Assembly (NCBI GenBank): GCA_029167225.1
Contig: JARFNK010000012.1
Location: 62,001 to 126,000 of the forward strand
Source of the DNA: Sphingobium arseniciresistens
Lineage (GTDB): Bacteria; Pseudomonadota; Alphaproteobacteria; Sphingomonadales; Sphingomonadaceae
DNA: 64,000 nucleotides
Reading direction: 5' to 3'
Of the stretch, positions 1,364-57,876 are shown piece by piece (the stretch's first letter is position 1; the number at the start of each line of letters is the position of its first letter). The position numbers and the translations under genes were made by a program. The notes beneath the pieces were generated by a model, which saw nothing but the letters and a program-made list of their open reading frames with translations, made no database searches and was not told where the DNA came from.

Positions 1364-1518
1364 GGTCGGTCCTCAAGGGCGGCGGGCGTTCCAATATGTT
1401 GACCAGTGCGCCTCGCGTTGCAAGGCGCCATCGCGGCATTGCAGTTATCGGAACATTAATTGTTGCAGTGCATGATTAATCCAGCACTGCTGCGGGTCGT
1501 TTCGGGGGCGCGATTTAA

Positions 1519-2898
1519 TTGGAAAAGCTGGATCTGCTGGCTGACCTTGGGGAAAGGTCGGGCGACATCGCATTGCAATGCAGCGAGACTGCGGGTTTCC
1601 TCGGGGAAGTCAACGAGCGAATCCGCAAGGATGCCGACAAGCTTGCTGGTCTTCATGCCGACATGGCTGTTCTGGGCAGCAGCCAGAGCGAAAGCGTGCG
1701 CGCGGCGCAGGAACTCGGCCTGACGGCCCGGCGTGCCGGCACGATCATTACCGAGGGGCATGAAGCGGCGGCACTTTCGCTGGAGGAAGTGGCCGGCCTG
1801 ATCGCCCATGTCACGGGGCTGGAGGGGCATTTGCGCAGCTTCCTGGCGGTGATCGAGGCTGTTGGCGGCATTTCCGACGAACTGGCGGCAATCGCGTGGC
1901 AGACCCGGATGCTCGGCATCAATGCCGCGATCGAGGCGGCGCGGGGTGGGGACGAGGCGCGGGGCTTTGCGGTCGTGGCGGACGAGATCCGCCGGCTGGC
2001 GGAGCAATCGGCCGGATCGGCGGCGTCCGTAAGCGAGAAGCTGGCGCAGCTGGATGGCGATGCCAGGGCATTGATCGGCGGGGTCGAGGCGAACATCGCG
2101 CGCGGGCGCGGGGTCAGCGCGCATATCGATTCGCTGCGCAATGCTCTGATGGAAATCGCGTCGCTGGTGGGGCAGTTCCGCGATCGCTCGGACGCGATCG
2201 CGCGGCGGACGGATGCGGCCGACGAGGCGGTCGAGGCGCTGCGCACCGGGCTGGAGGGCTTCACGCGATCCGCGACGCAAAGCGCCGGGCAGGTCAACGA
2301 AGCGCGACTTCGGTTGGACGGTCTGGAAGGCATGGCGAACGACATGCTCAACAGGACTGCGCGCAGCGGCCAGCGTACCCGCAACAGCCGCTACATCGCC
2401 CTGGCCGAAGAAGGCGCGGAGGAGGTCTCCGCCCTGATCGAGGCCGGGTTGCGCGAGGCGCGGCTGGCGCGCAGCGCCTTGTTCGACACCCATTATCAGG
2501 CCATCGAGGGATCGGACCCCCGGCAATATCTGACCGGGTTCACCGATTTCGCCGACGCGCTCATCCGGCCCTTGCTGGATCGGCGGACGGCGCAGGATCC
2601 GGCCATCGTCGGATGTTGCCTCATCGATATGAACGGCTATCTGCCCACCCACATCGGCGCGCGCAGCCAGCCGCCGCGCAGTGGCGAGCGGCTGTGGAAC
2701 ATGGAGCACGCCCGCAACCGGCAGATCTTCATGGACGCCCAGACACGCCGCGCGCTGGACGGGGAAGGCGACTTCTTCCTGTTCACCTATCGGCAGGATC
2801 TGGGCGAGGGGCGCTACCGGGCGCTGCGCAGCGTCTTCGTGCCGCTTATCTTCGACGGGCAGCGCTGGGGCGCGTACGAGGTCGGCTATCTGATCTGA
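1519..2898 (+). CDS. Soluble methyl-accepting chemotaxis-type signalling protein
   Basis: A 459-residue protein without membrane segments. Residues 118-145 carry the receptor hairpin tip (IAWQTRMLGINAAIEAARGG), followed by FAVVADEIRRLAEQSA, which binds CheA/CheW in chemoreceptors. The second half (about 290-459) is a predicted sensor-like domain (FFLFTYRQDLGEG, VFVPLIFDGQRWGAYEVGYL), so the usual order is reversed: signalling module first and sensing module last. TTG at 1519 is taken as start because an in-frame TAA sits immediately upstream and GGGGGCG lies about 9 nt before it; a later ATG cannot be excluded. It stands alone, with no che genes nearby, so the input and the partner kinase are unknown. 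Confidence 0.8.
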   Translation: MEKLDLLADLGERSGDIALQCSETAGFLGEVNERIRKDADKLAGLHADMAVLGSSQSESVRAAQELGLTARRAGTIITEGHEAAALSLEEVAGLIAHVTGLEGHLRSFLAVIEAVGGISDELAAIAWQTRMLGINAAIEAARGGDEARGFAVVADEIRRLAEQSAGSAASVSEKLAQLDGDARALIGGVEANIARGRGVSAHIDSLRNALMEIASLVGQFRDRSDAIARRTDAADEAVEALRTGLEGFTRSATQSAGQVNEARLRLDGLEGMANDMLNRTARSGQRTRNSRYIALAEEGAEEVSALIEAGLREARLARSALFDTHYQAIEGSDPRQYLTGFTDFADALIRPLLDRRTAQDPAIVGCCLIDMNGYLPTHIGARSQPPRSGERLWNMEHARNRQIFMDAQTRRALDGEGDFFLFTYRQDLGEGRYRALRSVFVPLIFDGQRWGAYEVGYLI

Positions 2899-40320: not shown

Positions 40321-41652
40321 ATGTCGCTCACCATCATCGAAGTTAAGAATGCCAAGCCTGCCGCCAGCGATTACCGGCTTGCTGATTCTCACGGTCTGTT
40401 CCTCCACATAACCACAGCCGGCGGTAAAATCTGGCGATACAGATATCGCGTCGGACCGAGGGAAAAGACCCTTACGCTTGGTCGATACCCCGAGATGGGC
40501 CTCGTGGCCGCGCGCGAGGCGCATCACGAAGCGCGCAAGATGGTCTCCGAAGGCAAAGATCCAGCCCTTGAAAAGCAGAAATCGAAAATCTCGAGAATCG
40601 AGGCGGCGAAGATAACTTTCAGAAAGGTCGCAGAAGACTGGCTGGCGGACCAGGAGCCGATCTGGTCGATCTCGAATGCAAAGCGGGTTCGCAACCGGTT
40701 CGAGCGCGACCTCTATCCGCTGTTCGGCAATCTGCCTATCGGACAAGTCGAGAGCACGGCGATCCTGCGGGCACTGCGAAAAATAGAAGCTAGAGGATCG
40801 ATCGAAACCGCCAAGCGGGTGCGCGGCTATGTAAGAAGTGTCTTCCGCCGCGCGAAAGGGGAGCGCCTCGTCGACCATGCACTCCTGTTGGAGATCGACG
40901 AGATCAAAGATGCGCTCAAGCCGGCACGCCGCGGCTCGAAGCAGCCTGCCCTTACAGAGGTACCTGAACTCCTGGAATTCCAGAATGTCGTGGATCGTTC
41001 GACCTCAAGCCTGGTCGTCAAGCTCGCTTCAAGGCTTCTGGCCCTGACGCTCGTCAGGATAGGCGTGCTGCGTGCCGCCCTCTGGACCGAGATCGAAGGC
41101 ATCGACTGGGATAGTCCAAACTCAGTTCCAAATGCACCCATCTGGCGCATCCCTGCCAGTCGGATGAAGCTCGACGTTGAAGATAAAGGCAATCCGGCCT
41201 TTGGGCATGACGTGCCGCTACCGCATCAGGCGGTTGAGGTACTTCGTGCGCTGCGCCCGCTAACCGGCTGCTTTGATCTGCTCTTTCCAAGCACAAAATC
41301 TTGGCGCGAGCCCATGTCCGATGCTGCTCTCAGCACCGTTTACAAACGCATGGGTGGAGGCCGCTACAAGAACGTGATGGTGCCACATGGCTGGCGATCG
41401 TCATTTTCGACCATCATGAACGAACGAGCTGCCGAACTTGAGCGGGACGGTGATCGGATGGTGATCGACATGGTTCTCGCGCATGTTCCGCCAGGGGTGT
41501 CTGCATCGGAATGGTCATACAACCGCTCCCGCTACCGCAAGCCACGTGGCACGCTCATTCAGATATGGGCAGACATGATCACACGGGGTTTACTCCCCGC
41601 CGAGGAGATGGTCACATGCTATCTGAGCGGTAACCAGAGGGATCGGCAATGA
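40321..41652 (+). CDS. P4-type tyrosine site-specific integrase
   Basis: 443 residues. The N-terminal DUF4102 arm-binding domain (LADSHGLFLHITTAGGKIWR) is followed by a core-binding domain (WSISNAKRVRNRFERDLYPLF) and a catalytic domain. Visible catalytic elements are Arg in LVRIGVLRAALW, His356/Arg359 in PHGWRSS, a His in LAHVPPG and the presumed Tyr in SYNRSRY near residue 400. It presumably mediates integration and excision at the tRNA-Ile2 gene. The 3' end overlaps the convergent alpA-like gene by 41 bp. Confidence 0.93.
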   Translation: MSLTIIEVKNAKPAASDYRLADSHGLFLHITTAGGKIWRYRYRVGPREKTLTLGRYPEMGLVAAREAHHEARKMVSEGKDPALEKQKSKISRIEAAKITFRKVAEDWLADQEPIWSISNAKRVRNRFERDLYPLFGNLPIGQVESTAILRALRKIEARGSIETAKRVRGYVRSVFRRAKGERLVDHALLLEIDEIKDALKPARRGSKQPALTEVPELLEFQNVVDRSTSSLVVKLASRLLALTLVRIGVLRAALWTEIEGIDWDSPNSVPNAPIWRIPASRMKLDVEDKGNPAFGHDVPLPHQAVEVLRALRPLTGCFDLLFPSTKSWREPMSDAALSTVYKRMGGGRYKNVMVPHGWRSSFSTIMNERAAELERDGDRMVIDMVLAHVPPGVSASEWSYNRSRYRKPRGTLIQIWADMITRGLLPAEEMVTCYLSGNQRDRQ

Positions 41653-46572: not shown

Positions 46573-49500
46573 TCATTTGAAGTTACGAGGCTTGATTTTT
46601 ATCCCCTCCGTCGGACGGCCAGGCACGATGCCGGACCCAAGGCGCAGATCGGGGATATAAATCTCGCGTGCCTTGCGCCCTAGCAGCTTGGCTCCTGGAT
46701 CGCGAGGATCAGGGCCTCCGCCGCTTTTTGCGCCGTCGCCGCGAGCCGGACGAAAGACGGTGGCCGGATCGCTCCTCTCACCCACGCTTGCGAGCAGTCC
46801 CGACAGATTTTCCAGCCGCTGGGCGATGACATGAATGACCTCGCCTTCCTTCTGAACCTGCCCCCGCACGCCAAGCATGGATGCACCCAGGACAGTCGCC
46901 CGATTGGATTCGAATATTTTGGTCCAGACCACAAGATTTGCGATACCGGTCTCGTCCTCGATGGTGATGAACATGATCCCCTTGGCGGAGCCGGGTCGCT
47001 GCCGCACCATAATGATCCCTGCCAGATTGACCCAGCGGCCATCGCGGATATCGGCAAGCGCCGAACAAGGGACTATCCTTCTTGCCGTCAGATCTTCCCG
47101 GAGAAAGGCAACTGGATGGGCGCGAAGCGACAGGGCAAAGCTGCGATAATCTTCCACCACCTCCTGGCCTTGCGCCATCCGTGGGAGCGCAACCTCCGGC
47201 TCGACCGCTTCGGCGCGTAGTTTCCCCTCGCGCTCGTCTGCTGCGGCAAAAAGCGGGAGGGGGACGTCACGCAACCCCTTCACATCCCAAAGACCGGCGC
47301 GACGGCTGCGCTGAAGCGAGCCAAAGCCATCGGCGTCGCCGATCCGGTCGAGGGCACCAGCACCAACGCCGGCCCGCCGCTGGATGTCTTCGATCGAGCA
47401 ATAGGCCTGCGCGCCGCGCGCCGAAATGATTGCCGCGCCATCCGGATTGGCAAGGTCGCGGACCATGCGCAGGCCAAGGCGCACGGCCTTGTACCGTCGG
47501 TTCCCATCTTCAAGCGTGCAGTCCCAGCGGCTGTGGTTCACATCGATGGGGCGGACCTCGACGCCATGCTCGCGGGCATCCCGTACGATCTGCGCAGGTC
47601 CATAAAAGCCCATCGGCTGAGCGTTCAGCAGCGCGGCACAAAACACGTCCGGATGATGGCATTTGAGCCAGGACGAGGCATAGGCGATGAGGGCAAAACT
47701 TGCCGCATGGCTTTCAGGAAAACCATAGGACCCAAAGCCCTCGATCTGCTTGAAGGTCTGTTCGGCAAATGCCTGCTCATAGCCGCGCTCGACCATGCCG
47801 CCGATAAGCTTGTCCCGAAAATGACTGACCCCGCCGGTTAGCTTGAACGTTGCCATCGCGCGCCTTAGCAGATCCGCCTCGCTGGCCGTGAACCCAGCAC
47901 ATTCGATCGCCACGCGCATGGCCTGCTCCTGAAAGAGCGGGACGCCGAGTGTCTTCTCCAGCACACGGCGCAGCTCAGGCTTGGGATAGCTCACCTCTTC
48001 CTTGCCTTCACGGCGCCTGAGATACGGATGGACCATATCTCCCTGAATGGGGCCGGGCCGCACGATCGCCACCTCGACGACCAGGTCATAAAAGGTGGTT
48101 GGCTTGATCCGCGGCAGCATCGCCATCTGCGCTCGGCTCTCGATCTGGAACACGCCAAGCGTGTCCGCTTTGCGGATCATCGCATAGGTTGCCGGATCCT
48201 CCGGCGGGATCGTGGCAAGGTCGAGATGGATGCCCTTCTCCGCCCGTAGGAGATCAAAGCCGCGCCGCATGCAGCTCAGCATGCCTAGCGCCAGCACATC
48301 GACCTTCATGAATCCCATGAGGTCGATATCGTCCTTGTCCCATTCGATGATCTGCCGATCATCCATGCGGGCCGGCTCGATCGGCACCAGCTCGTCAAGC
48401 CGGTCGCGCGTCAGAACAAAGCCGCCAGGATGCTGGGATGAATGGCGGGGTGTATCCATGAGGATGCGCGAGAGTTCCAGCGTCAGCGCCAGGCGACGAT
48501 CTGTCAGATCGAGGTTGAGTTCGGCGACATGCTTTTCCTGTACGCCCTCGCGGCTCCAACCCCAGACCTGCCCTGACACGGCATCGGTGATGTCGGTCGA
48601 AAGGCCAAGCGCCTTGCCGACCTCGCGGATCGCCCCTTTGGTACGGAAGCGGGAGATGACTGCTGTGAGCGCGCTATGGTTGCGGCCATAGGTCTGGTAA
48701 ATCCACTGGATCACTTCCTCTCGCCGCTCATGCTCGAAATCGACGTCGATATCGGGCGGTTCGCGCCGCTCTGCACTCACAAAGCGCTCGAACAGGAGTT
48801 CGGTGCGCACCGGATCGATCGAGGTGATGCCAAGGCAATAGCAGACCGCCGAATTGGCTGCCGATCCGCGACCCTGGCACAAAATATCTTTCGAGCGCGC
48901 AAAATTGACGATTGCGTGGACTGTCAGAAAATAGGGTGCGTAATCGAGCTGGGCGATGAGGCGCAACTCATGCTCCAGCTGCGCTCTCGTCTTGGCATCG
49001 ATGCCGTCAGGATAGCGGGCAGGGGCTTTTTCCCAGGTAAGCCGCTCAAGTTCCTGCTGCGGTGTGCGTCCGCATTCTCCAATTTCATCGGGATACTGAT
49101 AACGCAGTTCCTCAAGGTTGAAGCTGCATTGTTCGGCAATGGCGACGCTTCGCCTGACCGGGCCGACGTCCCCAAGATAACGCTGGAAGAGGCGGTCCAT
49201 CTCGTCGGCATCCTTAAGATGCCGGTCGGCGATATGCTCGCGCCGCTCGCCCAGATCGTCAATCGTGCACTTCTCGCGGATACAGGTCACAATATCCTGC
49301 AGCATCCGACGCTCGGGTATGTGGTAGAGGACATTACCCGTCGCAACGGTCGCTACGCCTGCGTTCTGCGCCATGGCGACCAGCCGTCGCAGCCGCAACG
49401 CATCCCCGGGCTGCCGCTGCAGGGTCAGCGCAACATGGCCTCGGTCCCCAAATATCGATGCGACGCTCGCAAGGTTCGTCTGCGTTCTTGTGTCGTCGCC

Positions 49501-49890
49501 ATCGGGGATGAGGATGGCGATCAGCCCTGCGTTCCATGTCGCGATATCATCCCAGTGAAGCTCGCAGCCCCCTTTTCCGGCGCGAGATTTGCCGAGCGTC
49601 AGCAGTCGGCAGAGACGGCCATAGGCTGTCCGGTCTGTCGGATAGACGAGCAGGCCAGTGCCGCAGGAAAGATCCAGTCTGCAGCCGTTGATGACGCGCA
49701 CACCTGTCGAACGGCCAGCATCCCAGGCGCGCACCAAACCAGCCAGGCTGTTGCGATCCACGATGCCGATAGCAGACATGCCCAGCATGGCGGCGACCGA
49801 GAGGAGCTCTTGGGGGGAGGATGCACCACGCAGGAAGCTGAAATGGCTCGTCGCCTGCAACTCGACATAGCGCTGATCGAGCGCACTCAT
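46573..49890 (-). CDS. dnaE2: Error-prone DNA polymerase DnaE2 (ImuC)
   Basis: 1105 residues from ATG 49890, which overlaps the imuB stop (ATGA). An N-terminal PHP domain ([19 protein letters not shown]) is followed by the polymerase III alpha-type catalytic domain with [16 protein letters not shown] and [14 protein letters not shown], a helix-hairpin-helix region and an OB-fold ([18 protein letters not shown]). DnaE2 performs translesion synthesis together with ImuA and ImuB. The upstream genes, overlap and SOS box point to expression as a single damage-induced operon. Confidence 0.96.
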
Positions 49891-51440
49891 GCAAAGGCAC
49901 CGTGGATGAACCAGGCCATCGGTCCGGTCGGTGACCATTGGCCATCACCCAGGCGAAATAGCCAGTAGCGCCCGCCGCCCTCGACCTCGACCTGGAAATA
50001 GTCGCGGACAAGATAGGGGATGTCGGCCTCCTGGCCCTTGGCGCGCCACCATTCGCCCTGAAGCCGTTCCGGGCCGTCGGCCTGGATGACCTTGCGGCGC
50101 TTGCCGCGCCAGACAAACTGAGCAGGCGGATGGTCTGGCATCATCGCAATCACCTGGATCGGTTCGGGCGGTTCAATCATGCGGCCTGGGCGCGGCAAAG
50201 CTGCATTCCAGCGCCGATCCGCGCCCTCGCGCAATGCCGTTGTCCGCGCGATCGTGCGCTCGGGCATGGCGGATGATCGGGGCGTTGTGCCGTACAGCCG
50301 GTCGCGGCCGAAGCGGTTCGCGAGCGCGTCGATGAGCGCAGCAAGGTCGGGGCCGCGACGCTCATCGCCAGCAAGATCTGCCTGCGCGCTGCTGAGCTGT
50401 TCAACGATCGGCGCGATCAGGATCATGGTCTCGATCCCGAGGCCAGGGTCGATCCGCTCGATCCTGGGAATGAGAAGCTTTGTCAGATGACGGGCATTCC
50501 TGGTGGGAGACGCCATACCGATCCTGACAGACTGATATTGGCCATCGACCCTTTCGCAGTAAAGGTCGAGGCGTCGCGCACCGGTTCCGTCTCGCGTCAA
50601 CTGCATGCAAATGTCGTCGGTGAGATCGCCGATGACCCGGGCGATGGCATCGGCCGTGCCGATAGGTTCGAGCAGCGCGCGGCGCGCCTGAGGCAGCGCC
50701 TGCGGGAAAATCGGCGTCATCGCCTCGGGCGCATGGCCCAGGGCCTGGTCTAGGCGGCGGTAAAGCTCATGTCCGTAGCGGCGCGCGATGGGACCACGCG
50801 GCTCGGCGATGAGTTGCTCGATCCGTGTAAAGCCCATCCTGTGAAGATCGCTTGCCACCTTCGCCGGGATGCGCAGGGCGGCAAGGGGCAAAAGGCCGAC
50901 GGCCTTCTTCTGGTCGCCCGGCGGAATGATGACCGGGCGGCCGGCGGGGACATGACGCGCGACGGCATGCGCGCAGCCCGCCGTATCGGCGACAGCAATC
51001 TGGGCTGTAAGGCCCGAACCGTTTACCCGGCGGAACAGGTCCTTGACGAGCGCTTCCTCGCCGCCAAACAGGTCGCTGCATCCGCTGATATCGAGCCAGA
51101 CGCCATCTGATCGATCCACCGCTACGAAAGGGGCGTAGCGCTGGCCTGCCCACAGGGCGAGCCGCTCGAGCCCTTCGCCATCGGCCGCTTCGTCTGCATC
51201 CACGACATCAAGATCAGCCACCATGGTCCTTGCCTTGGTGAGGCTCATGCCGGCCACGATGCCGAGGCCGCGGGCAAGCGCGTCCACCGACGCGATCAGC
51301 TTGCGACCGTGCGTTTCGATGGCCGTGACGAGCGGCTGCCCGGATAGACCTGCGTTCGCCTCAGATGGCGATACGCCACGCTTCCTGCTGATCCGGTCGG
51401 TCGACCAGTATGGCAGGTAGAGCGAGACGACCCTGCGCAT
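49887..51440 (-). CDS. imuB: ImuB, catalytically inactive Y-family polymerase homolog
   Basis: 517 residues beginning [16 protein letters not shown]. The Y-family fold is evident ([38 protein letters not shown]), but the metal-binding D-x-D at the start is absent, as in known ImuB proteins, which act as a hub linking DnaE2 to the beta clamp. QADLAG near residue 360 may be the clamp-binding motif, weaker than the usual Q-x-x-L/D-L-F. The start overlaps imuA by 80 bp; the standard N-terminus argues that this is real. Confidence 0.93.
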
Positions 51441-52092
51441 CGCAGGCCTCCACTATCCAGCTTTTGGGTTGTGCGCCGCGCACGCGCTCAAGCGTGAGCG
51501 ACCAGCGCGGGCGGGCGAGGGCAGGGATGCCCAGGTCTTCGCTTGGCGCTGCCCTGACGCGCCAGCGGGTCTGCGCCGCCGAGCCCTCCAGAAGCGCATC
51601 GGCTTTGGCGGCACGGCGCAGAATGAACGCAGTCACTCCAGACCCTTCAGCAGCAAGCTGGAGCCTTTTCGATGCAGTGGTGGAAAGCCTGGAGACTTCG
51701 CCAACGACGCCGGCGATACCTGCAACGCGCAGGCAATCCTCCATTGCGATGAGCGCCCCCTTGTCATCGCCAGGCTCGACAATCGTCAGGCGATCGGGAT
51801 GAAGGCCGGCAAGGTCGAGCGCCGGCGTGAACAGATCGCGCCAGCGCAGGCACCAGAAAACCGGGCCGTCCATCCGCGCCAATATGCCCGCAATGAAGAC
51901 CGTCGCAGCCGCGTCGTCGCAAATGTCGGGAGAGCCCAGAACTTCATGCAGTGCACCTGTCGCAAGACCGCGTCTGGGCAGATAATCGTCGATTTCGGCA
52001 AGGCCAAAGGGATGGATGCCATGACCGCTTCCATCGCCCGTCACATGGGCGATCGAAGAACGCAAATCCTCGAGGATGGCATTGGGGGGCAT
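51361..52092 (-). CDS. imuA: ImuA, RecA-like mutasome accessory protein
   Basis: 243 residues with a RecA/SulA-like arrangement: PFGLAEIDDYLPRRGLATGALHEVLG, AATVFIAGILARMDGPVFWC and RLTIVEPGDDKGALIAMEDCLR. A canonical Walker A Lys is not visible. ImuA is required for DnaE2/ImuB-dependent mutagenesis in several bacteria. It is preceded by a perfect LexA box and a TTGACA -35 element, and its last 80 bp overlap imuB. Confidence 0.92.
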   Translation of the reverse strand: MPPNAILEDLRSSIAHVTGDGSGHGIHPFGLAEIDDYLPRRGLATGALHEVLGSPDICDDAAATVFIAGILARMDGPVFWCLRWRDLFTPALDLAGLHPDRLTIVEPGDDKGALIAMEDCLRVAGIAGVVGEVSRLSTTASKRLQLAAEGSGVTAFILRRAAKADALLEGSAAQTRWRVRAAPSEDLGIPALARPRWSLTLERVRGAQPKSWIVEACDAQGRLALPAILVDRPDQQEAWRIAI

Positions 52093-52119: not shown

Positions 52120-52157
52120 GTTCTCTTTATGTTCTCTATCGCGCCCATGGCTGTCAA
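52120..52157 (-). promoter_or_regulatory. SOS (LexA) box and promoter of imuA-imuB-dnaE2
   Basis: GTTC-N7-GTTC at 52120-52134 is a perfect match to the alphaproteobacterial LexA operator, ending 28 bp upstream of the imuA ATG (52092). On the minus strand a perfect -35 TTGACA (52157-52152) is 17 nt upstream of the position covered by the box, so LexA would block the -10 region. Confidence 0.88.
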
Positions 52158-53649: not shown

Positions 53650-53716
53650 GGAGCCAGGTTGTGTGTCAGCATGGCAAGCGCGGGGCCCTGCAAAGCCAAT
53701 TGCGGGAGCCGCGCAG

Positions 53717-54538
53717 ATGAAAATTGCCTCTTATAATGTGAACGGGGTCAACGGGCGCTTGCCCACCCTGCTGCGATGGCTCGGTGAGGCCGAGCCCGAT
53801 ATCGTCTGCCTCCAGGAATTGAAGGCGCCTCAGGAGAAGTTTCCGCAAGCGGCGATCCGCGACGCCGGCTATGAAGCGATCTGGCATGGGCAGAGCCGAT
53901 GGAACGGTGTCGCGATCCTGAGCCGGGTCGGCGAAATCCTTGAGACGCGTCGCGGGCTGCCGGGTGATCCTCACGATATGCAGAGCCGTTACATTGAAGC
54001 GGCGGTTGCAGGGGTTCTGATAGCAGGTCTTTATCTGCCCAACGGGAATCCACGCCCGGGGCCCAAATTTGACTTCAAGCTGCGCTGGTTCGACCGGCTA
54101 TATGACCACCTCGCCTCGCTTGTCGATCTTGACGCGCCGGTCGTGGTCGCCGGCGACTTCAACGTGATTCCCACGGATCTGGATGTCTATGCGCCGGAGC
54201 GGTGGCGAGATGATGCGCTCTTTGCGCCGGAAGTCAGAAAGGCCTATCGCCATGTGCTGGACCAGGGATGGAGCGACGCCCTGCGCGATTTGCATCCTGA
54301 TGAGACCGTCTACACCTTCTGGAAATATTGGCGCGGGGCGTTCGAGCGCGACGCGGGCCTTCGTATCGACCACATTCTGCTCAACGCGAATGCGCGCGCC
54401 CGGCTCAAGCGGGCTGAAGTCGATACAGCGCCGCGCAGATGGGAAAAGACAAGCGATCATGCTCCGGTCTGGATCGAGCTTGCAAACGAACCGCTGCGCA
54501 AAACGCGTCAGTCGCGCTGCGCAAACCAGTCGGCATAA
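53717..54538 (+). CDS. xth: Exodeoxyribonuclease III family protein (AP endonuclease)
   Basis: 273 residues with all exonuclease III motifs: SYNVNG (Asn7), CLQELK (catalytic Glu34), GDFNVIP (Asp/Asn), RIDHILL and SDHAPVW (catalytic His). It should cut DNA at abasic sites and trim 3' ends. The first residues MKIASYNVNGVNGRLP fit the family, so ATG 53717 is well supported. Its 3' end overlaps the convergent hypothetical gene by 31 bp. Confidence 0.93.
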   Translation: MKIASYNVNGVNGRLPTLLRWLGEAEPDIVCLQELKAPQEKFPQAAIRDAGYEAIWHGQSRWNGVAILSRVGEILETRRGLPGDPHDMQSRYIEAAVAGVLIAGLYLPNGNPRPGPKFDFKLRWFDRLYDHLASLVDLDAPVVVAGDFNVIPTDLDVYAPERWRDDALFAPEVRKAYRHVLDQGWSDALRDLHPDETVYTFWKYWRGAFERDAGLRIDHILLNANARARLKRAEVDTAPRRWEKTSDHAPVWIELANEPLRKTRQSRCANQSA

Positions 54539-54837
54539 GGCGTGTTGCACGCAAGTTGGCGACCATAGTCGGGGGCACCATCGCTCCACCAGACCGGGCC
54601 GCGCTCGCCAAGGGCGCGCTTGGCAATATCCACCGCCTCATGCGCCTTATGCTCGGCTGGCGCATCGCCGCTTTTGCGCGCTTCGCGCACCGTCCTGCGC
54701 GCCTGCATGAGATCGGATACCAGCCCTGCGCGGACGTCTTCATCAAGCGCGGGATTGGAGACACGCCACAGGCGTCCGCGCACGACGAAATAGCGACCAT
54801 CGGGCGTGACCGGGTGGGTGGTCGGCGGACGGCTCAC
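54508..54837 (-). CDS. Conserved hypothetical protein next to trxC
   Basis: 109 residues from GTG 54837, which overlaps the thioredoxin stop codon (GTGA). It has THPVTPDGRYFVVRGRLWRV, a helical middle rich in Ala, Arg and Glu, and a C-terminus with GPVWWSDGAPDYGRQL and NTPYADWF. I recall close relatives in many alphaproteobacterial plasmids and islands but no function. Translationally coupled to trxC. Confidence 0.75.
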   Translation of the reverse strand: MSRPPTTHPVTPDGRYFVVRGRLWRVSNPALDEDVRAGLVSDLMQARRTVREARKSGDAPAEHKAHEAVDIAKRALGERGPVWWSDGAPDYGRQLACNTPYADWFAQRD

Positions 54838-55304
54838 GCCGGCCTTGCCGCCTCGCGCGCCCACGCGACAATCGCCTGCTGCGACATTGCGCCAGACTGC
54901 CGCGCAATCTCGCGGCCGCCCCGGAAGAGGATCATCGTGGGAATGGATCGAATGGCATAGCGACCCGCGATCATTTGATGCGCCTCGGTATCAAGCTTGC
55001 CAAGCCGCATATAGGGTTCAAGTTGTCCAGCGGCACCGTTGAAGGCGGGCGCCATTTGGCGGCAGGGGCCGCACCAGCTTGCCCAGAAATCGACGAGCAG
55101 CGGAATGTCGGACCGCGCGGCATGGGCGTCGAAATTCGCATCCGTCAACATGACCGGCTCGCCGGAGAATAGGGGCTGCTTGCAGCGGCCGCAGGTCCCC
55201 CCCTTCGCCAGCCTTTCGCGAGGAAGGCGGTTCGCTGCCGAGCAGGCCGGGCAGATAAGAATGAGGCTATTTGCGAGGGCCGTAGTCATTCTGGTCTCCA
55301 TCAT
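54834..55304 (-). CDS. trxC: Thioredoxin 2 (TrxC)
   Basis: 156 residues from ATG 55304, which follows CAGGAG by 6 nt; ATG 55289 (after GGAGA) is an alternative. An N-terminal zinc finger (CPACSAANRLP and CGRCKQPLF) precedes a thioredoxin fold with the redox motif WASWCGPCRQM and cis-Pro region SIPTMILFRGG. TrxC is often induced by oxidative stress. Coupled to the following hypothetical gene. Confidence 0.93.
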   Translation of the reverse strand: MMETRMTTALANSLILICPACSAANRLPRERLAKGGTCGRCKQPLFSGEPVMLTDANFDAHAARSDIPLLVDFWASWCGPCRQMAPAFNGAAGQLEPYMRLGKLDTEAHQMIAGRYAIRSIPTMILFRGGREIARQSGAMSQQAIVAWAREAARPA

Positions 55305-55565: not shown

Positions 55566-55600
55566 CATTGTTGATTAACAATGTTGTTCGCTATATGTTC
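55566..55600 (+). promoter_or_regulatory. SOS (LexA) box and adjacent palindrome before the SRAP pair
   Basis: GTTC-N7-GTTC at 55586-55600 is a second perfect alphaproteobacterial LexA operator, 41 bp upstream of the first SRAP ATG (55641). Directly 5' lies CATTGTT-GATT-AACAATG (55566-55583), a perfect 7-bp palindrome that could be another operator. Confidence 0.85.
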
Positions 55601-55640: not shown

Positions 55641-56303
55641 ATGTCCAGATTGCATACGACCCTTGCAAGCATCGGCGAAGTCGCCACATATTTTGGTGCG
55701 CAGCTGCCAGCGGGCGTAGTCCATTTTTCTGCCGAGACCACCGAGGGCACCGAGGGCCTGGTTGTCTTCGAAAGCCGGGGACGCCGGCTTGTGCGGTCGA
55801 TGGGCTGGGGGTTTCCACGCTTTACGCGCGAGATGCGGGAGCGGGGCGACGACCCGCAACGCCTTGGGCTGGTCGCCGATCTCACCAACCCCATGTGGGA
55901 CCATCTGGTCGTGGACCCGCGCTATCGCTGCCTGATCGTCCTTACCCATTTCGCCAATCCCGACGGCGTGCCCGGGCACAAGACAAGGACATGGTTCTCA
56001 GTCAAACAAGCGCCCATCATTGCCTGGGCCGGCTTCTGCCGGAATTTGCCCAATTACGGACCGGTCTACGCCGGCATGACGATGGAGGCCAACGCTGCGG
56101 TCATGCCGACCAATGACAGGATGCCGGTTCTTCTCGATCCGCATGAATATGACGCCTGGTTGCATGGCAGCATCAGGGACATCATCGGCTTTCAGCATCG
56201 CGCGCCTTTCGCTGCCGAACGCATGGTCGTCGAGAAAACGGAAGATTTGTGGCGCAGCGGAAAATTGCCCGCCAAAGCGCAGCCTCAGCTTGCCTTGCTT
56301 TGA
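55641..56303 (+). CDS. SRAP (HMCES/YedK-like) domain protein lacking catalytic residues
   Basis: 220 residues, 5' of a SOS box and GGGAG. It is collinear with the next gene (SMGWGFPRF, TNPMWDHLV, HKTRTWFSVKQAPIIAWAGF, NDRMPVLLDPHEYDAWL), so the SRAP fold is clear. SRAP proteins cover abasic sites by a thiazolidine link through Cys2, assisted by Asn, Glu and His. Here those positions are Ser2, Gly76, Asn106 and Asn158. The initiator is followed by Ser, so no crosslink can form. It may bind DNA without crosslinking, or be a partner of the active paralog. Confidence 0.88.
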   Translation: MSRLHTTLASIGEVATYFGAQLPAGVVHFSAETTEGTEGLVVFESRGRRLVRSMGWGFPRFTREMRERGDDPQRLGLVADLTNPMWDHLVVDPRYRCLIVLTHFANPDGVPGHKTRTWFSVKQAPIIAWAGFCRNLPNYGPVYAGMTMEANAAVMPTNDRMPVLLDPHEYDAWLHGSIRDIIGFQHRAPFAAERMVVEKTEDLWRSGKLPAKAQPQLALL

Positions 56304-56352
56304 GCGCTGCGCAACATTCTCGGTCGGACGACGCGATGAGGCAGGGGCGACA

Positions 56353-57003
56353 ATGTGCAACCTCTATACCCAGCGATTAAGTGCTGCCGAGATTGCTGCG
56401 CATTTCGGGGTCGAAGCGCCCGACATCGCCGCCATGAACGTGCCAGAGGAGGTATATCCCGGCTATCCTGGGATGGTGGTGCGCACGTGGGAAGGCAGGC
56501 GCGTCCTGCAATCCATGGTCTGGGGTTTTCCGCTGGTCCTGCGCGGCATGAAGCCGGGATCCAAGCCAAAGCCCGTCAACAATATTGCCGACCTGCACAA
56601 GCCCATGTGGACCGGGCTTGCACGAAAGCCCCAGTGGCGTTGCCTCATTCCGCTGACCGCCTTTGCAGAAGCAGAGGGAGAGAAGGGAAAGAAAACCCGC
56701 ACCTGGTTCACTCTCAAGGACCGCCCCGTTTTTGCCTGGGCCGGTCTTTGGCGCGAAAGTCAGGAATGGGGCGCGGTCTATTCGGGCGTCATGACGGGCT
56801 GCAACGAAACCATCCGGCCGGTGCATGACCGTATGCCTGTGCTGCTGCATGAGGACGAATATGATGAATGGCTAGGCGGTTCATTTGAGGAAGCGGTCGC
56901 CTACCAGGCTCGCTGCTTCCCCGACGATCAGATCGAAATGAAGCGCACCAGCGATCCCTGGAACAAACCCAGCCTGTCGGCGCCTTCGCCTTTGCTTTTG
57001 TGA
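56353..57003 (+). CDS. SRAP domain protein (HMCES/YedK-like), catalytically intact
   Basis: 216 residues starting MCNLYTQRLSAAEIAAHFGV, with Cys2 exposed after Met removal. The other active-site residues are present: Asn76 in PVNNIAD, Glu106 in AFAEAEG and His158 in PVHDRMPVLL. It should form a DNA-protein crosslink at abasic sites in single-stranded DNA and later release it. ATG 56353 follows AGGGGC. It lies 49 bp after the degenerate paralog, in the same LexA-controlled transcript. Confidence 0.93.
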   Translation: MCNLYTQRLSAAEIAAHFGVEAPDIAAMNVPEEVYPGYPGMVVRTWEGRRVLQSMVWGFPLVLRGMKPGSKPKPVNNIADLHKPMWTGLARKPQWRCLIPLTAFAEAEGEKGKKTRTWFTLKDRPVFAWAGLWRESQEWGAVYSGVMTGCNETIRPVHDRMPVLLHEDEYDEWLGGSFEEAVAYQARCFPDDQIEMKRTSDPWNKPSLSAPSPLLL

Positions 57004-57201: not shown

Positions 57202-57876
57202 CTACCTGCGCCTATTTTGGTCGATCATTTTCTTAGCGATCGTGCGAAAAGTGATCGACCAACGGGTTTCCTCCATGTCGGCGATGCTATGCTCCCAGTG
57301 GTGCCGCGCGTCACCGTAGAGATGATAGATGGAACGCGGTGCAAGCGGAACGGTGACGCGATCGAACCCGTCCTCTCTGCGACGGCGAAAGCGTAAGGGA
57401 GCGGATGCGCCCAGCGAAATGCCCACGACATGGCCGAAGACCGGGCGATCGCGATGCCAGCCAATGCCGGCGCCAGGATCATATCGGATGAGCAATGCCT
57501 GGGCGAGGCTGCTGGGACGAAGGCCAGCAAAAGCGGCGGCCTTTGCACGTACAGGCAGCAACCAGCCAGGGATGGGCTCGGCCGGCCCGAAGCGCGCATC
57601 ATCAAAATCATAGCGCCATCCGAAGGAAGAAGTCAGGCGCTTGCCGAGCCAGCCCTGGAAACGGAACGGCTCAAGCGCTGTCGCGTCAATTGCGGCGATC
57701 AGTCTCAATTCCTCCTCGCATGAAATGCGCTCTTCACGATAGGAAAGACCCGGGATTTTCGGGGGGCGAACAGATCGGGAAACAGGCTGGCCATTCACGA
57801 TGAGATTGGGAGGCTGGGCGCGATACGCAACCGCAAAGCGGATTTTTCGACAAAGCAGATGTCGGGATGGCACCAA
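57202..57876 (-). CDS. alkB: AlkB-type alpha-ketoglutarate-dependent dioxygenase
   Basis: 224 residues at most; the start is uncertain (TTG 57876, or GTG 57798 which would remove 26 residues). The 2-oxoglutarate/iron core is visible: GWHRDRP (His, Asp), HHWEHSI (second His) and RWSITFR (2-OG-binding Arg). It should directly reverse alkylated DNA bases or RNA. Convergent with the SRAP operon, divergent from the flavoprotein gene. I did not find a SOS box immediately in front of it. Confidence 0.9.
   Translation of the reverse strand: MVPSRHLLCRKIRFAVAYRAQPPNLIVNGQPVSRSVRPPKIPGLSYREERISCEEELRLIAAIDATALEPFRFQGWLGKRLTSSFGWRYDFDDARFGPAEPIPGWLLPVRAKAAAFAGLRPSSLAQALLIRYDPGAGIGWHRDRPVFGHVVGISLGASAPLRFRRRREDGFDRVTVPLAPRSIYHLYGDARHHWEHSIADMEETRWSITFRTIAKKMIDQNRRR

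Follow-up and report, generated by a model that had tools for sequence, protein, structure and literature searches.

The proteins of the SRAP superfamily (PF02586), which includes YedK and HMCES, carry a cysteine that is described in section 6 of PMC3765255 as absolutely conserved and always the second residue. The contribution of this and other catalytic residues has been dissected in YedK, where loss of the Cys2 thiol leaves the protein unable to form a stable crosslink and a lyase activity appears, which is suppressed by mutation of the glutamate; substitution H160A reduces the rate of crosslinking 10-fold or more, loss of Glu105 has a worse effect and N75A has little effect (available sections of PMC9436759). 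A search of the open literature, which covered titles and the openings of abstracts, found no catalytically dead SRAP paralogue or clade.

The window considered here is a 64,000-nucleotide stretch of the Sphingobium arseniciresistens genome (GCA_029167225.1, contig JARFNK010000012.1, positions 62,001 to 126,000 of the forward strand). It contains two adjacent SRAP genes, termed SRAP-1 and SRAP-2, near an imuA-imuB-dnaE2 cassette (46573-52092, minus strand), an Exo_endo_phos gene, a thioredoxin gene and an AlkB-like gene. The features that are relevant to the analysis are as follows:

46573..49938, minus strand: dnaE2-like error-prone polymerase (PF07733, PF17657, PF14579, PF02811, PF01336)
49887..51440, minus strand: imuB-like Y-family polymerase homologue (PF00817, PF11799)
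51361..52092, minus strand: imuA-like gene, without a Pfam match, 44% identical to an 'ImuA family protein' of a Rhizobium plasmid
52120..52134, strand not given: GTTC-N7-GTTC site upstream of imuA, the second such site
53705..54538, plus strand, start approximate: Exo_endo_phos protein, exonuclease III / AP endonuclease like (PF03372, E 3.4e-30)
54508..54864, minus strand: small protein without a Pfam match, recurring near SRAP-1 orthologues at many loci
55586..55600, plus strand: LexA-box-like GTTC-N7-GTTC site, 40 bp before the SRAP-1 ATG
55641..56303, plus strand: SRAP-1, dead SRAP of 220 amino acids, with Ser2, Leu77, Asn106 and Asn158 replacing Cys, Asn, Glu and His
56353..57003, plus strand: SRAP-2, active-type SRAP of 216 amino acids, with Cys2, Asn77, Glu106 and His158
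57202..57876, minus strand: AlkB-like 2OG-Fe(II) oxygenase (PF13532, E 1.4e-15)

Both SRAP reading frames are intact and lie 49 bp apart, and their products are 42% identical. The original prediction held that the two proteins align without gaps and that SRAP-1 has lost all four catalytic residues. A MAFFT alignment places a few gaps of one or two residues before residue 76, so that the alignment is not strictly ungapped, but because these gaps cancel, the residue numbering of the two proteins agrees. The four-residue loss itself stands, since Cys2, Glu106, His158 and the asparagine are all replaced, but the catalytic asparagine is more likely to occupy column 77 than column 76, to which it had been assigned. 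This follows from the aligned SRAPs with NNAR, NNTR or YNFR motifs, in which the equivalent of YedK N75 falls in column 77; the phmmer alignment to 2aeg agrees, whereas that to 1zn6 favours column 76. SRAP-1, with Gly76 and Leu77, lacks asparagine at both positions, and SRAP-2 has it at both. A misassigned start codon does not explain the absence of the cysteine from SRAP-1, as the MSRL start recurs among its relatives (Ser2 in 68, Arg3 in 71 and Leu4 in 72 of 75 rows).

Both proteins pass the PF02586 cut-off of 27.1 bits, SRAP-2 with a good match (E 2.3e-24, 86.6 bits) and SRAP-1 with a weak one (E 2.5e-11, 43.9 bits). NCBIfam gave no match for either, and a phmmer search of PDB sequences returned three matches for SRAP-2 and none for SRAP-1. 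In the AlphaFold models (pLDDT 93.2 and pTM 0.90 for SRAP-1, 91.7 and 0.88 for SRAP-2) the order of strands and helices is nearly identical, and all 21 PDB matches that Foldseek reports for SRAP-1 at E ≤0.001 are SRAP structures, including YedK and HMCES, with TM scores of up to 0.75. SRAP-1 is homologous in sequence to the family and, in its model, shares its fold, and it has none of the equivalents of the Cys2 nucleophile, Glu105, His160 and Asn75 of the YedK and HMCES enzymes. A phage origin was considered and rejected, with two weak matches among 50,697 phage records.

Scanning one genome per species with a profile yielded 82 relatives of SRAP-1, from which 80 loci were retained. These come from Sphingomonadales, Rhizobiales and a few other Alphaproteobacteria, with record names that include Sphingobium, Sphingomonas, Sphingopyxis, Rhizobium, Neorhizobium, Mesorhizobium, Phenylobacterium and Rhodospirillales, among others. 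Because the loci were ranked by similarity to SRAP-1, the sample favours dead forms, and basal and intermediate forms may be under-sampled. A sequence was counted as full length if 180 or more of its residues aligned in a single frame, and after removal of exact duplicates and of rows repeating a genome, 66 distinct full-length SRAP-1 sequences remained, the window's copy included. A larger alignment (74 and 73 rows), which holds seven rows (L007-L010 and three partners) repeating scanned genomes, supplied the thinned or unthinned sets used for the trees, the distance correlations and the tallies of basic residues.

All four catalytic residues are missing from 64 of the 66 distinct SRAP-1 orthologues and from none of the 65 distinct active partners, every one of which has Cys2, Asn77, Glu106 and His158. 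The replacements are themselves strongly conserved: residue 2 is Ser in 60 SRAP-1 sequences, Ala in four and Cys in two; residue 77 is Leu in 62 and Met in four; residue 106 is Asn in 62, Gln in two, Asp in one and Glu in one; and Asn158, Pro107 and Arg160 are invariant. Residue 133 is Cys in 62 and Ala in four, a count that is biased because this position sits inside one of the two patterns used in the scan. It had been anticipated that orthologues retaining the catalytic residues would count against the interpretation of SRAP-1 as a pseudoenzyme, and such retention is confined to Cys2 in two sequences, one of which also has Glu106, both being basal; at the remaining columns, Asn158 and either Leu77 or Met77 are found throughout. 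As judged from the alignment, a four-fold loss common to so many orthologues is not due to chance. Nor is the grouping circular, although BLAST scores against SRAP-1 and SRAP-2 were used to divide the loci, since trees built without the catalytic columns recover the same clade and the scan patterns, which span residues 80-87 and 128-135, include none of residues 2, 76, 77, 106 and 158. Taken together, the sequences show that SRAP-1 is a conserved SRAP that has been stripped of its catalytic residues. Three SRAPs that lack the four catalytic residues (L132 7001-7657, L133 7001-7666 and L135 6001-6666) carry the public annotation 'protein-DNA covalent cross-linking', which, to go by these residues, is probably wrong.

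In a maximum-likelihood tree of 64 rows, from which the five columns of interest had been removed, the 32 SRAP-1 sequences form one clade (bootstrap 100, SH-aLRT 99; recovered in 100% of 200 bootstrap trees), as expected for a pseudoenzyme paralogue, and repeated random decay is not indicated. Within this clade L104 and L108 pair (99/92) and L093 joins the other 29 rows (96/88), which, without L093, are also grouped by a quick tree (SH-aLRT 99). The early branches are informative, as L093 has Cys2, Leu77, Glu106 and Asn158, L104 has Cys2, Leu77, Gln106 and Asn158, and L108 has Ser2, Leu77, Gln106 and Asn158. The fewest changes on the tree are two each for Asn77, Glu106 and His158 and four for Cys2; the second change of Asn77 and of His158 falls on L012 (Gln77, Gln158), and two of the Cys2 changes would fall on rows outside the clade (L016 and L025), the starts of which may be misread. 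The distribution indicates that Asn77 and His158 were lost first, in the stem of the clade, and we read Glu106 and Cys2 as each having been lost twice, later and within it. Because the basal L093 and L104 retain Cys2, and L093 also Glu106, the loss appears to have been stepwise. Given this order of loss and the effects of the corresponding YedK mutations, the SRAP-1 clade probably began as a slow crosslinker in which the reaction was lost afterwards, and since Asn now takes the place of Glu, a lyase activity is also unlikely. L012 itself (about 1501-2112), a SRAP that retains Cys2 and Glu106 and lies outside the dead clade, may represent a further start of catalytic loss.

The possibility that SRAP-1 is simply a decaying duplicate is scarcely credible. 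The SRAP-1 copy is not a full-length frame in 10 of the 80 loci, near relatives of the window's gene among them, as decay would have it, but the active partner is likewise absent or not full length in 10 loci, leaving 70 full-length copies of each, and the characteristic residues are shared across orders. Moreover, dN/dS of SRAP-1 against its three nearest orthologues is 0.096, 0.125 and 0.161; the values for SRAP-2 are 0.075, 0.101 and 0.101. For the full set of pairs with dS between 0.05 and 1.2, median dN/dS is 0.32 for SRAP-1 (722 pairs) and 0.21 for the partner (402 pairs), so that constraint on SRAP-1, as measured in this way, is real but looser than on its partner. The frame decay that was named at the outset as a sign against SRAP-1 thus finds little support; the window's frame is intact, and the gene is under purifying selection. 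Residue loss across orthologues coupled with low dN/dS supports the original prediction of a maintained pseudoenzyme paralogue with a role of its own. The gene is nevertheless rare, being present at 60% identity or more in six of 149 family genomes, in one of which (G027) the frame is broken, and in one of 385 class genomes at E 1e-55, namely the window's own. Judged by record names, eight genomes have two SRAP-1 loci each (L036/L047, L044/L053, L045/L054, L040/L059, L049/L052, L072/L078, L084/L095 and L039/L055), and the second copy in Sphingobium terrigena (L047) is split over two frames.

An active SRAP accompanies SRAP-1 in 74 of the 80 loci. In 73 of these it lies downstream in the same orientation, and in 49 of the 73 no more than 150 bp away; no active SRAP is present at L041, L055, L082 (where 164 bp of contig remain), L086, L106 and L115. 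At least one of imuA, imuB and dnaE2 is found in 34 of the 80 loci. Of the 58 loci flanked on each side by 5.9 kb or more, 32 have such a gene and the other 26 have none. At least two plasmids carry the pair next to imu genes. In the Rhizobium rhizogenes CA75/95 plasmid, imuA, imuB, dnaE2, the dead SRAP and the active SRAP follow one another in this order on one strand, whereas the polymerase set of a Sphingopyxis fribergensis plasmid is divergent, and in Agrobacterium vitis the plasmid-borne pair adjoins a dnaE2 remnant and xth. On all three plasmids the dead protein has Ser, Leu, Asn and Asn beside Cys, Asn, Glu and His in the active one. In all, 40 plasmid records match SRAP-1 at E ≤1e-20, dead and active forms being unsorted, and 24 of the 40 are typed as conjugative. 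In the window, an open reading frame at 40321-41652 presumably encodes a tyrosine-type phage integrase, which it resembles, and the cassette may lie on an island. Plasmid imuABC cassettes are described in the available part of PMC4151985 as driving transient hypermutation after gene transfer.

The sequence GTTC-N7-GTTC found 40 bp before SRAP-1 and again upstream of imuA contains what we take to be the alphaproteobacterial LexA motif, which would place the window's SRAP-1 in the SOS regulon. Such sites recur, lying within 130 bp upstream of SRAP-1 in 41 of the 80 loci as against 108 of 8000 random windows (1.35%), and within 300 bp in 47 of 80 as against 139 of 4000; for broken SRAP-1 copies the distance was counted from the start of the aligned piece. 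The remaining 39 loci have no site within 130 bp, and five of these have a same-strand dnaE2 just upstream. The SRAP genes of Sphingopyxis granuli, taken without regard to dead or active type, are induced in anaerobic growth alongside lexA, recA and the two sets of imuAB-dnaE2 (PMC6472365, available part).

The constancy with which the two genes are paired raises the question of whether SRAP-1 is an obligate heteromeric subunit of SRAP-2, in which the dead half positions the DNA or controls the active half. The short gaps between the adjacent genes are in accord with this, as is a second dead/active pair in the same genome (see below), and in 32 adjacent pairs the distances among SRAP-1 sequences correlate with those among their partners (r 0.51, with none of 2000 permutations as high; Spearman 0.31). 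However, over the 56 loci left when near-duplicates are dropped, the correlation falls to r 0.11 (126 of 2000 permutations as high; Spearman 0.00), which does not support strict co-evolution; it is 0.31 (Spearman 0.12) in the 53 loci without exchanged partners and 0.16 (Spearman −0.24) in 22 distant pairs, so that co-divergence of the two genes appears weak to moderate. A fixed interface is also hard to reconcile with seven of the 64 scan loci in which both genes are full length (L060-L063, L067, L070 and L111, five of them named Sphingopyxis), where SRAP-1 is 64-66% identical to the window's copy and the active SRAP only 49-51% identical to SRAP-2; the partner from L063, the one of the seven placed in the tree, groups with another active lineage. 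Furthermore, at L041, L055 and L086 SRAP-1 is full length, yet the 6 kb downstream contain no active SRAP. SRAP-1 therefore seems to keep some active SRAP nearby, but no particular one, which favours a shared substrate or pathway over a fixed heterodimer and makes an obligate heteromer rather unlikely. It is similarly doubtful that SRAP-1 serves the ImuB/DnaE2 mutasome as a protein adaptor that has ceased to bind DNA, with the active SRAP a mere fellow traveller. This would fit the imu genes at more than half of the well-flanked loci and the description, in the available part of PMC12926913, of SRAP-like proteins linked to UmuC-like polymerases as putative PolY-binding subunits, but SRAP-1 is more tightly linked to an active SRAP (74 of 80) than to imu genes (34 of 80).

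Charge also bears on the adaptor proposal. Positions 8, 71, 73, 92, 111 and 199, all six of them basic in the active partner, are basic in only 0-24% of SRAP-1 rows, and the median net charge is −2 for SRAP-1 as against 0 for the partner. This suggests that SRAP-1 may have lost DNA binding in the manner of YedK, as an adaptor could have, and the six lost positions count against a plain DNA-shield role, although four basic positions have been gained in SRAP-1 (3, 52, 60 and 94) and six are common to both proteins. Alternatively, the residues that replaced the catalytic set could form a site for a new chemistry or ligand, made up of Asn158, Pro107, Asn106 and perhaps the free N-terminal amine of Ser2. 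Their conservation (Asn158 and Pro107 invariant in the 66 sequences, Asn106 present in 62 of them, and residue 2 limited to Ser, Ala and Cys) speaks for such a site, but it may be structural; we know of no precedent for new chemistry of this kind in the SRAP family and regard the proposal as improbable.

The S. arseniciresistens genome has a second pairing of this type. Contig C42 encodes a canonical active SRAP and a divergently oriented, shorter SRAP homologue (PF02586, E 9.5e-12), in which the N-terminal part with the Cys2 region is missing and Phe, Met and Gln stand in place of Asn, Glu and His:

L003 2102-2617, plus strand, and 1435-2049, minus strand: second dead/active SRAP pair, divergent, with a LexA-like site between the genes

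Relatives of this second dead SRAP occur at 70% identity or more in six of 149 family genomes and at 30-43% in four more, one of these as a partial frame only, and all ten genomes have an active SRAP within about 2.5 kb; two further family genomes were matched through active forms only. Each of seven divergent pairs (L116-L122) has a LexA-like site between the genes. When both kinds of dead SRAP are forced into one clade the AU test gives p 0.036, with divergent rows, one long branch and groups named post hoc, and a common origin is thus weakly rejected. Two separate origins of dead SRAPs are likely on this basis. Further divergent SRAP homologues, with Ile and Lys in the Glu and His columns, are found at L124 and L125, in each case directly adjoining a same-strand active SRAP.

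The interpretation that we tentatively prefer is that SRAP-1 is a maintained pseudoenzyme, probably a helper and not an enzyme, that modulates the active SRAP and the error-prone polymerase at abasic sites. According to this model SRAP-1 and SRAP-2 would act together at abasic sites in single-stranded DNA. SRAP-2 would crosslink the abasic site and thereby protect it, whereas SRAP-1, for which formation of a thiazolidine DNA-protein crosslink should be out of reach, would reversibly engage abasic sites as well, or else the proteins assembled around them, where it may contact SRAP-2, ImuB or DnaE2. In this manner it would tune the fate of the abasic site, between crosslinking and hand-over to DnaE2 for error-prone bypass. 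It is possible, though more speculative, that a two-part SRAP system, composed of a crosslinker and a dead controlling homologue and often found with a DnaE2 mutasome on plasmids or chromosomes, has been made at least twice in Alphaproteobacteria. If so, the dead homologue would determine how crosslink protection is weighed against mutagenic bypass, and would constitute a control step for a very stable DNA-protein bond. A clade without Cys2, maintained next to an active SRAP and in many cases next to imuA-imuB-dnaE2 as well, offers a natural tool for separating binding from crosslinking, and a means to ask how the choice is made in the cell between protection of an abasic site and its bypass by copying.

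In comparison with known systems, SRAP-1 has the fold and homology of the SRAP superfamily, and its locus has the SOS and imuA-imuB-dnaE2 gene context previously described for that superfamily, but it departs from the description given in the available part of PMC3765255 in that 64 of 66 distinct sequences retain none of Cys2, Asn, Glu and His. In this respect it resembles ImuB and ImuA, the inactive polymerase and RecA homologues of the DnaE2 mutasome, which are non-catalytic paralogues kept in SOS mutagenesis (PMC3765255; PMC12926913, which excepts one ImuA group; both in part). These have other folds, and the likeness drawn here is one of catalytic loss, not of membership of that complex. 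Also comparable are the SRAP-like proteins linked to UmuC-like polymerases, for which the available description mentions neither catalytic residues nor a paired active SRAP and which are considered putative regulatory subunits of an error-prone polymerase; in contrast to SRAP-1, their associations are described as independent of DnaE2 (PMC12926913, available part).
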